The notes under the pieces: model-generated
Seen by the model: only the letters and a program-made list of their open reading frames with translations
Told to the model about the DNA's origin: nothing
Databases searched by the model: none
Program-made: the position numbers and the translations under genes
Part shown: positions 4,415-7,050 of the stretch, one piece after another
How the letters are laid out: each line of letters begins with the position of its first letter
How positions within the stretch are numbered: the first letter of the stretch is position 1
Assembly (NCBI GenBank): GCA_003598175.1
Contig: QZKN01000096.1
Span: 1-64,000, forward strand
Origin: Candidatus Omnitrophota bacterium
GTDB taxonomy: Bacteria > Hinthialibacterota > Hinthialibacteria > Hinthialibacterales > Hinthialibacteraceae
Direction of reading: 5' to 3'
DNA length: 64,000 nucleotides

Positions 4415-4439
4415 CTGCAATTTGTCAATCGTTCAATCA

Positions 4440-5453
4440 ATGGAGCCAATTGTGGAACTGCGTTTTTTGAATAATTCTTACGAAAAAACTTCTCTTCTTC
4501 GCTTTTTCGATCCGAATCCGTTGCGATGTTTTTCTCTTGAACAAATCGCTTCCAAATCCGGGCTATCATACGAAACCATCGTCAACGCCATTGCGCAATT
4601 GAATCAGGAAGGTATTCGCATCCTTTATCGGCCGGAGAATGGTTACTTTTATGAACCGCGGGAAACCATTCTTCATCCCGACAAGATCACTTTGCATCTT
4701 TTCACACGCTGGTGGGGACGGCGTGTCATTACGGTGGACCAGATTTCTTCCACGATTGATTTGGCCAAAACACTCGCAATCGATCCCGAACGGCATGGAA
4801 CGGTTTGTATCGCCAATGCCCAATCCAAGGGGCGGGGACGATATGGGAATGCATGGGCGTCGCCCCAAGGCAAGGATATTCTTTTGACTTTTTTGATCGT
4901 CCACGAAGGCTGGGATATCCCGGTTTCCTTGCTGTCTTTGTATACGGTTGTTTCCGTTGTCCGTGTGTTGGATACGGCGTACGGCTTGCCGGTCGCGATC
5001 AAATGGCCCAACGATATCGTCGCGGAAGGACGAAAATTAGGCGGCGTGCTGGTGGAGCGCGACGAATCTTCCAACAGCTTTTTGATCAGTTTGGGATTGA
5101 ACGTGCATAGCCGACCTTGCGATTGGCCTCGCGAGATTCGCGACGTCGGCGTGTCGTTGTCGATGTTGAAAGAGGACCATTGGGAACGGGATTATCTCAT
5201 TGCGCAATGCGGCGCGACGTGGGAAACGCAATGGGAGACGTTGATGCAGGATAAGGGGGAAACCGTCAGAGACTATTGGAATCGATACTCGACCACGCTC
5301 GGCAAAACCGTTTCCTTTTTATATCGCGGACGGCAATTGTCGGGATTCACCAAAACCATTGATCAAGAGGGACGTCTTTTGCTTTTGACCGATGAGGGAA
5401 GAGATTTGGCGCTTCTTCCGGAGGAAGTGCGATCTTTGCGAATTTTGGAATAA
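4440..5453 (+). CDS. birA: Biotin--[acetyl-CoA-carboxylase] ligase with N-terminal HTH
   Basis: BirA activates biotin with ATP and attaches it to biotin carboxyl carrier protein; proteins with an N-terminal helix-turn-helix can also repress biotin genes. Here residues about 20-65 form a winged-helix region (FSLEQIASKSGLSYETIV), followed by the catalytic domain with the biotinyl-AMP loop GRGRYGNAWASP and the KWPNDIVAEGRKLGGVL segment, and a short C-terminal SH3-like domain. The length, 337 residues, is normal for the bifunctional form. I chose the ATG at 4440; a TTG at 4422 would add six residues. No biotin synthesis gene is nearby, so a regulatory target cannot be named from this window. Confidence 0.93.
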   Translation: MEPIVELRFLNNSYEKTSLLRFFDPNPLRCFSLEQIASKSGLSYETIVNAIAQLNQEGIRILYRPENGYFYEPRETILHPDKITLHLFTRWWGRRVITVDQISSTIDLAKTLAIDPERHGTVCIANAQSKGRGRYGNAWASPQGKDILLTFLIVHEGWDIPVSLLSLYTVVSVVRVLDTAYGLPVAIKWPNDIVAEGRKLGGVLVERDESSNSFLISLGLNVHSRPCDWPREIRDVGVSLSMLKEDHWERDYLIAQCGATWETQWETLMQDKGETVRDYWNRYSTTLGKTVSFLYRGRQLSGFTKTIDQEGRLLLLTDEGRDLALLPEEVRSLRILE

Positions 5454-5455
5454 AT

Positions 5456-5509
5456 GGAACGCCGGCATCCTGCCGGCAAATCGAAGAGCCGCCGAGAAAG
5501 CGGCGTTCC
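5456..5509. repeat. Palindromic repeat unit 1, three-way-junction fold
   Basis: Directly after birA, an outer stem (GGAACGCCG at 5456-5464 with CGGCGTTCC at 5501-5509) encloses two hairpins: GCCGGCA-TCC-TGCCGGC and GCCGC-CGAGAAA-GCGGC. The fold is a cloverleaf-like three-way junction. It is not a tRNA: the arms are too short and there is no T-loop consensus. It resembles dispersed REP-like elements. Confidence 0.6.
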
Positions 5510-5560
5510 AATATTCCGTTGTAATCAATTGTACAGGCGTGTTGACGCGAAAATAAACGT

Positions 5561-5619
5561 GGGTAGAGCCGGCGTCCCCGCCGGCGCTGGTCATGCAAGC
5601 GAGGACGCTTGCTTTACCC
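5561..5619. repeat. Palindromic repeat unit 2, three-way-junction fold
   Basis: A second element 51 bases after the first has the same plan with partly different arms. The outer stem GGGTAGAG pairs with CTTTACCC (one G-T pair) and encloses GCCGGCG-TCCC-CGCCGGC and GCAAGCG-AGGA-CGCTTGC. The region between birA and the end of sppA (5454-5671) contains no credible gene. Confidence 0.6.
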
Positions 5620-5671
5620 ATGCATGAAGGTGTGATCACCCCATGATGTTGGTTGATAGGCGATTTGCGCA

Positions 5672-6799
5672 TCAATACGGGAATCGGTATTGTATCGGAG
5701 AGGGAAATTTCTGTCCGGTCAAGGTTGATAATTTTTGCGAAAGCAAATCCAGCCACGAATATTCCCGTTTCCGCCGCTCGATGACTTTTGGTCGTCCGCG
5801 GATTCCCACAAGCCCGGCTGCCGTTTGGATCGCATCCTCCAGCGAACCGATATCGTCGATGAGGGCGATTTCCTTCGCCTGGCGGCCGGTGTAGATTTTC
5901 CCATCGGCCAGCGTCTTCACCAATGATAGAATCACGTCATGACTGGGCAGAAAGCGTTCCTGAGCAGTCGGGTTCGCAATCTCGGGATTTGAGGTTGTTT
6001 CCGTTCCGGATTGAATTTCGGTCGCGGCCGGAATGATCGGCGCGGCATTATGGATTTGTGCAAGCTGTGCGATGCGATCCTGATAATTGCGTATGATTTC
6101 GACCACATCCGGCGTGAAGGGATATTCCGGCGTCGTTTTCGTTGATTTCCAATGTTGCAGCAACCGAATCATGTTTTCCTTGCGGCCTTCGGCCACCGCT
6201 TCGACGAATTGCAGATAGGTATCGTCGATGACGCTTTGCATCATCGTCCGTTCCTCTTCCGTCATCTCTCGTTCGATCGAACCGACGGTTTTGTATTTTC
6301 CCGCTTTTATGGTCTCATAATCGATCCCGATTTTCTCGAACAGTTCTTTGGTTTCTAGAAATTTGGCATAGACGCCGATACTGCCTGTCAGCGTACCCGG
6401 CGACGTCAAAATCCGGTCCGCGCCGCAGGCGATATAATACCCTCCCGAAGCGGCGATGGATCCGAAAGATACCACGACGACTTTTCCGTAATCTTCCCGC
6501 GTCTCGACGATGGCGCGGTGTAAATCTTGTGAGGGGGAAACCGCTCCGCCCCCGCTGTCCACCCGCAGGACGATCCCGCGTATGGAGCTATCTTTCTGAT
6601 ATTCCTCGATCTGATCGAGCCACTCTTCCGCATCGTAAATCAGACCCTCCACTCGCACCAGCGCCAATCGATCCGCCCCTAAAAGATTGACCGACGATCC
6701 CCGAATCGAATAGACGATCAACGTGACGAAGATGCCGATCATAAACAACACGATCAGGAAGAATGTGAACACCAACAATAAACCGGTTCTCTTTTTCAT
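5672..6799 (-). CDS. sppA: Signal peptide peptidase SppA, S49 family, with internal insertion
   Basis: SppA is a membrane-bound serine protease that degrades cleaved signal peptides. The 375-residue protein has one N-terminal membrane segment (residues 7-31) and the S49 core: VDSGGGAVSPS, the nucleophile region GSIAASGGYYIACGADRI (Ser118), LTSPGTLTGSIGVY, and the lysine of KAGKYKTVGS (Lys168 or Lys170), followed by EREMTEEER. The closing motif DGKIYTGRQAKEIALID at about 299-316 is present. Between them, residues about 208-290 form an insertion with a low-complexity stretch (IPAATEIQSGTETTS) that short SppA proteins do not normally have. The start is the ATG at 6799 before KKRTG; the upstream open frame is not convincing. 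Confidence 0.9.
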   Translation of the reverse strand: MKKRTGLLLVFTFFLIVLFMIGIFVTLIVYSIRGSSVNLLGADRLALVRVEGLIYDAEEWLDQIEEYQKDSSIRGIVLRVDSGGGAVSPSQDLHRAIVETREDYGKVVVVSFGSIAASGGYYIACGADRILTSPGTLTGSIGVYAKFLETKELFEKIGIDYETIKAGKYKTVGSIEREMTEEERTMMQSVIDDTYLQFVEAVAEGRKENMIRLLQHWKSTKTTPEYPFTPDVVEIIRNYQDRIAQLAQIHNAAPIIPAATEIQSGTETTSNPEIANPTAQERFLPSHDVILSLVKTLADGKIYTGRQAKEIALIDDIGSLEDAIQTAAGLVGIRGRPKVIERRKREYSWLDLLSQKLSTLTGQKFPSPIQYRFPY

Positions 6800-7001
6800 G
6801 ATACGATTTAAACGATGTCCTTTATTATTGTGATTCTTGTAACCGAGCTTGATGCCTTGAATGTTCCTGTTTACATTATCCTTTGCATGGAGGAAGTCAA
6901 TTGGCCGTAGTGTACTGATTTTTTTACTTTTCGATAAGGATAAGCATAGGTACCGCCGCTCGGAATCCGCATGGTCTTGTTCAATGGGAAAACCGACCGG
7001 A

Positions 7002-7030
7002 TTGGCGGAAAAGGAGAATCCGCTTATCCT
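7002..7030 (+). promoter_or_regulatory. Candidate sigma-70 promoter of the glycosyl-1-phosphate transferase gene
   Basis: TTGGCG at 7002-7007 and TATCCT at 7025-7030 are separated by 17 bases and end about 20 bases before the first ATG of the downstream gene. The match is by eye only. Confidence 0.35.
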
Positions 7031-7050
7031 ACAGTATAGCATACTTCCAG

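Follow-up and report, generated by a model that had tools for sequence, protein, structure and literature searches.

Two families of REPINs in a BIME-like cluster between birA and sppA of a Candidatus Omnitrophota bacterium

REPINs are inverted doublets of REPs (Bertels and Rainey 2011, PMC3116915). Among the GTAG-tagged REPs, which are carried by the PVC superphylum among others, REP dimers are regularly tied to a further palindrome in other bacteria (PMC3733652), while in the BIMEs of Escherichia coli REPs of several types, inverted with respect to one another, are combined into mosaic clusters within intergenic DNA. Here we describe two elements, E1 and E2, in a stretch of 64,000 nucleotides (the window; positions 1 to 64,000 of contig QZKN01000096.1, assembly GCA_003598175.1), which a preliminary description made from the letters alone had noted as cloverleaf-like repeats behind birA. 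Both are REPINs, set in a cluster that is BIME-like; the kind of repeat is an established one, the lineage a little-known one. Their assignment to the class of REPINs and BIMEs is secure; very probably they are single copies of two REPIN families that form part of a larger set and occur in intergenic mosaic clusters, and a RAYT has probably dispersed them. This reading is based on dispersal in high copy number, head-to-head pairs at fixed spacing, covarying hairpins and a near-exclusive intergenic location, and further on like REPs that flank RAYT genes in relatives and, for the E1 type, in distant phyla.

Together the two elements take up much of the 218-bp gap between a pair of convergent genes. 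The upstream neighbour is birA (4422..5453, + strand), encoding a biotin-protein ligase with an N-terminal HTH (Pfam BPL_LplA_LipB, 4.3e-22; BPL_C, 1.8e-5), the end of which is 1 bp from E1; the other is an ORF for an sppA-like S49 peptidase (5672..7042, - strand, 3' end at 5672; Pfam Peptidase_S49, 9.9e-45), for which gene calling suggests a true start near 6778. E1 (5455..5510, + strand), recognised by its sequence, its fold and the genome-wide recurrence of its paired halves, represents REPIN family 1 and is a head-to-head heterodimer of two REPs, with the + strand layout TGGAACGCCGGCATCCTGCCGGC-AAATCGAAGA-GCCGCCGAGAAAGCGGCGTTCCA. Its left REP, TGGAACGCCGGCATCCTGCCGGC (5455..5477, + strand), belongs to the family TGKARCGCCGGCATCCTGCCGGC, and its right REP, TGGAACGCCGCTTTCTCGGCGGC (5488..5510, - strand), to the family TGTAACGCCGCCGTCYCGGCGGC, with 3 mismatches to that pattern. 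E2 (5560..5620, + strand) is separated from E1 by 49 bp and represents REPIN family 2, a head-to-head REP doublet with a 9-nt spacer and the + strand layout TGGGTAGAGCCGGCGTCCCCGCCGGC-GCTGGTCAT-GCAAGCGAGGACGCTTGCTTTACCCA, likewise recognised by sequence and fold. Its left REP (5561..5585, + strand), supported by the family pattern count and by covariation, joins a GTAG guide-type tetranucleotide (5563-5566) to the hairpin GCCGGCG-TCCC-CGCCGGC, and its right REP (5595..5619, - strand), an exact family match, joins the tetranucleotide GTAA to the hairpin GCAAGCG-TCCT-CGCTTGC. A search of the window returned no full copy of E1 or E2 elsewhere within it.

Beyond the window the repeats are abundant. 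Patterns applied at up to 3 mismatches to the whole assembly (6.88 Mb in 192 contigs, 92% complete) matched 265 copies of the E2 REP, 157 of the E1 left half and 94 of the E1 right half, and the reversed patterns used as controls matched none in any case; some of the 157 left-half copies belong to a sister family, E3, TGGAGCGCGGGCATCCTGCCCGC. A blastn comparison of positions 5440-5640 with the assembly gave at least 56 matches, 40 of 343 candidates having been scored. The dispersed repeat family supposed in the preliminary description, for which further copies in the genome were the test, is thereby confirmed. Finer statistics come from an unbiased 784-kb sample of the genome together with the loci of the matches. 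Within the sample, E2 REPs less than 150 bp apart form eight +/- pairs, in each of which 33 or 34 bp separate the two starts, the sole other close arrangement being one ++ pair at 109 bp; 32 distinct E2 doublets were collected, 60 or 61 bp in length and with a loosely conserved spacer, GCTGTTCAT. E1 is a fixed left/right heterodimer, since a joint reading of the position lists for left-half and right-half matches contains at least 46 head-to-head pairs, mostly 33-37 bp from start to start. Conservation was higher in doublets than in singlets, a difference that is not significant in this small sample (P = 0.11). E1 and E2 are two different families, each an inverted REP doublet.

The likeness to REPINs (PMC3116915) extends to high-copy intergenic inverted doublets of short palindromes with conserved spacing and predicted hairpins, to the coexistence of several families and to the presence of RAYT genes in the genome. 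The elements differ from the REPINs described there in that no RAYT linked to either family was found in the assembly, and in being compact (56-61 bp) and systematically asymmetric, the left half being unlike the right. In 22 of the 32 E2 REPINs GTAG on the left goes with a G-C pair where the stem varies, and GTAA on the right with an A-T pair there. Set against the canonical GT[AG]G at 0-2 nt from the stem, departures from which count against the preferred reading, the tetranucleotide is GTAG in 41 and GTAA in 37 of 82 E2 units, and GTAA in 24, GGAG in 6 and GTAG in one of 43 E1 units. E2 resembles the HH dimers of GTAG REPs (PMC3733652) in that its GTAG stands 1 nt before the stem, the ends with GTAG face outwards and two stem types are combined, and its left-type form appears to have the canonical GTAG-plus-hairpin arrangement of such REPs (PMC3733652, PMC6006769, PMC8266576); it departs from them in the GTAA of its right half, as does E1, which has mostly GTAA or GGAG. 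The BIMEs of Escherichia coli share the mosaic organisation, and differ in the sequences themselves, in the extra palindrome that accompanies the repeats here and in having protein binding that is characterised. The sequences of E1 and E2 were not found in the main text of the papers searched.

E1 and E2 share one plan, two hairpins enclosed by an outer stem, which sequence and folds both bear out as previously described; the unit, however, is not one cloverleaf but a doublet of inverted REPs. E1 is predicted to take the branched form on the + strand (-28.5 kcal/mol, z -3.6, equalled by 1 of 200 shuffles), and E2 may also form one long imperfect hairpin (-42.3, z -5.9, 0 of 200 shuffles as good), which is its predicted preference on either strand; the z-scores against shuffled sequence thus run from -3.6 to -5.9. 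An inverted-hairpin doublet of this kind can, according to the folding model, adopt both the branched and the long-hairpin fold. At stem pair 11-22 of 82 E2 units there are 45 A-T, 34 G-C and 3 G-T pairs and no other combination, compared with 41.6 Watson-Crick pairs expected if partners were shuffled, and E1/E3 units show C-G/G-C swaps at two stem pairs and an A-T to G-C change at a third. Such covariation argues that the REP hairpins are under structural constraint. It also bears on the GCCGGC arms to which the preliminary description drew attention: these are present in both copies, but are misleading as a sign of kinship, as the stems of the E2 family are GCAGGCG..CGCCTGC or GCAAGCG..CGCTTGC and GCCGGC arises in the left stem of the copy at 5560-5620 through a compensated A-T to C-G change. 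The likeness is therefore only apparent, the families having no arm in common, and the shared GCCGGC is coincidental. Rfam gave no match above its gathering score, only a sub-threshold resemblance to the microRNA mir-74 (20.6 bits against 57), and a known structured RNA was accordingly rejected.

Within the 784-kb sample, in which a home-made codon-based gene caller classed 82.8% of the DNA as coding, all but one of the 63 REPs counted from four families (62) lie between genes, compared with a non-coding background of 17%. Many REP copies adjoin a further AT-rich palindrome, U (consensus TTATTTTCATCCTTCGTTGTGACCAATCGGTCATGACGGTTTATATGAAAATAT), the counterpart here of the palindrome tied to GTAG REP dimers (PMC3733652). 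A weak remnant of U lies between E1 and E2 (5515..5555, + strand; nhmmer, 10.2 bits, E=1.9e-4 with 401 bp searched), and was not recovered when the whole sample was searched. The REPs are combined in mosaic clusters such as E2-E3, E3-E1-G, E2-G-E3 and, at birA/sppA, E1-U-E2. Upstream of E2 the junction has two paralogous states, an E3 REP in 9 REPINs and GAAAATAAACG in 20, as if the same site were filled in the former and empty in the latter. Another family of palindromes, GTAGGGGCGGTTCG/CGAACCGCCCCTAC, has 11 arms in the sample, all intergenic, and often adjoins E1, E2 or U (for example at L078:10237-10264 and L101:11600-11627).

Such clustering might indicate that E1-U-E2 is one compound, non-autonomous, MITE-like element with ATGAAAAT/ATTTTCAT arms, which some other transposase moves as a unit: of the 23 U copies in the sample, 17 lie within 40 bp of a REP, compared with 3.5% of random intergenic positions, and E2 copies have a consensus in their flanks over about 40-60 bp, which we attribute to U. 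Yet E2 is found with or without E3 upstream and also without U, U stands in a few places without any REP and in others beside different REPs, and no U-flanked transposase gene was seen; because the modules vary in combination and order, a mosaic describes them better than one fixed unit, and we regard the compound element as distinctly unlikely. Highly improbable, in our estimation, is that E1 and E2 serve to terminate transcription or to structure the 3' ends of mRNAs and have been selected for this between birA and sppA. Their position in a convergent gap, 1 bp past the birA stop, and their very stable predicted folds would suit such a role, and in other bacteria REP hairpins of this kind can act on RNA. 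But the 35 REP clusters in the sample that have two flanking genes comprise 27 in tandem, 7 in divergent and 1 in convergent settings, where the gaps of the background lead one to expect 23.8, 7.8 and 3.4, so that REP clusters are not enriched between convergent genes (Fisher P = 0.23, 35 clusters), and five same-family relatives are without E1 and E2 at birA. Since copies are not enriched in convergent gaps, a dedicated role at transcription boundaries, as suggested in the preliminary description, is unsupported by genome-wide placement, and with only one cluster in 35 convergent the setting of E1 and E2 is untypical of their kind. The site can be explained without any special or selected function at birA/sppA.

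The preferred reading, REPINs dispersed by RAYTs, raises the matter of the transposase. The preliminary description rightly placed no RAYT at the locus, and a search of the genome found two intact RAYTs (NF047646) elsewhere, scoring 192.7 and 184.1 bits against a cut-off of 80; one, on contig C71, has 183 aa, the other, on C134, is a 204-aa ORF, and both have the HUH motif and are flanked by a different REP family, GTAGGGTGGG. At C134 (L033:1256-2595) the gene is surrounded by arrayed GTAGGGTGGGATGAGG..CGAATCCCACC REPs: downstream there are five tandem copies at 47-bp spacing, and upstream there are inverted pairs. The genome also has two IS200-like genes flanked by other repeats; GCCAGCGGGCAACGCCCCTGG and CCCCAACGGGGT repeats stand on both sides of them (L031 on C90, L032 on C66), and the C66 copy is shortened, at 75 aa. 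In a REPtron test none of the four Y1 transposase genes in the assembly was flanked by E1, E2 or E3, and a link between E1/E2 and the genome's own Y1 transposases was rejected, other repeats flanking all four. E1 and E2 look like orphans, since both RAYTs sit in the GTAGGGTGGG family and most of the RAYTs examined in the class adjoin their own REP with a distinct stem. Mobilisation in trans by the resident RAYT of C71 or C134, despite their different flanking REPs, is unlikely: both are intact proteins with the HUH motif and GTAG is common to E2 and the GTAGGGTGGG REPs, but against it stand the distinct stems of the REPs that flank RAYT loci in the class and the specific recognition of stem or loop in the systems tested (PMC8266576). 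Of the proposal that RAYTs mobilise the repeats, the assignment to a RAYT-related, mobile-repeat class thus stands, but both RAYTs of this genome are embedded in another REP family. Linkage is to be expected where a family has a RAYT of its own and is not required of every REP, and so its absence lowers only the claim of which RAYT was responsible; the cognate gene may simply be missing, given the completeness of the assembly and its division into contigs.

Relatives and more distant genomes treat the two families differently. E2 has 0 or 1 match per genome among 13 other genomes of the class, and its exact pattern was found neither in named GTDB genome contigs nor in viral contigs, so the family appears to be all but restricted to this genome; one same-family relative has a single exact E2 REP, GGGTAAAGCAGGCGTCCTCGCCTGC, and no further copy (G005:C179:67318-67342, L071). 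REPs of the E1 type have 89 copies in one other genome of the class (G011), and their exact core occurs in at least 116 stretches from many phyla, including Acidobacteriota, Verrucomicrobiota, Gamma- and Betaproteobacteria, Obscuribacterales, Lentisphaerae, Hydrogenedentota, Bacteroidota and others. The spread through some PVC-like genomes proposed earlier is therefore too narrow for the E1 type, which is not PVC-specific, while E2 is almost private. NF047646 genes with E1-type REPs, GGAGCGCCGGCATCCTGCCGGC, on both sides are found in Gammaproteobacteria (L130, JALVPS010000390.1) and Verrucomicrobia (L135, JANXMD010000186.1), and in a same-order relative (G007, L231) a RAYT is flanked by the E3-type REP GGAGCGCGGGCGTCCCGCCCGC; the E1/E3 kind of REP is thus demonstrably RAYT-linked. 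At L130 and L135 the 22-nt core matches the E1 pattern GKARCGCCGGCATCCTGCCGGC exactly, whereas the tetranucleotide is GGAG, the doublet geometry differs and a RAYT is linked to the REP, as none is in the present assembly. In L231 (G007:C679, about 1456-2089) an open frame of 1,110 aa, DNA methyltransferase-like over the rest of its length, takes in the RAYT, with its E3-type REPs, without a change of frame, as if a RAYT-REP unit had been inserted into a gene and the frame kept open. Another RAYT (L233, G006:C89) is flanked by a very dense REP array, in which GTAGGACAGGCCTCCGTGCCTGTC occurs about 20 times, most of the copies being tandem repeats spaced 38 bp apart.

The locus itself is only partly kept in relatives. 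Two of them, G001 and G002, keep rarA-birA and have sppA further downstream, and lack E1 and E2. In G001 an ORF of about 328 aa (L039:2558-3544), CorA/ZntB-type transporter-like by eye, lies between birA and sppA, which are direct neighbours in the window, so a gene was lost or gained at the REPIN site. No strain-level pair of occupied and empty sites was found, the nearest genomes having only about 50% protein identity (BirA), and at that distance the G001/G002 gap does not align, so that no insertion can be read from it.

To judge from their form and the linkage seen elsewhere, E1 and E2 probably owe their spread to a REP transposase, the matching gene of which is absent from the assembly. 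When single-stranded, the doublet would expose either its pair of REP hairpins or a single long one, and a RAYT (TnpA-REP, an HUH/Y1 single-strand transposase) would recognise the tetranucleotide and hairpin, cut and rejoin single strands, and so copy the doublet to new intergenic sites. The cognate RAYT might lie in an assembly gap, have been lost or act from another family. It is possible, if rather doubtful, that the E2 REPIN, 22 of 32 copies of which have a GTAG guide to the left and a GTAA guide to the right, serves as a systematically asymmetric substrate, much as IS200/IS605 elements have left and right ends that differ, and that it is handled by an unlinked or not-yet-found RAYT with preferential insertion beside U.

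These repeats extend the biology of REPINs and RAYTs to a lineage that has been sampled only sparsely. They are also a clear example of the coexistence of several REP families, of which two are abundant without a linked transposase, and this bears on how REPINs persist or decay after RAYT loss. The occurrence of one REP core, the E1 type, with RAYTs in distant phyla suggests REP-RAYT pairs that are old or move horizontally.
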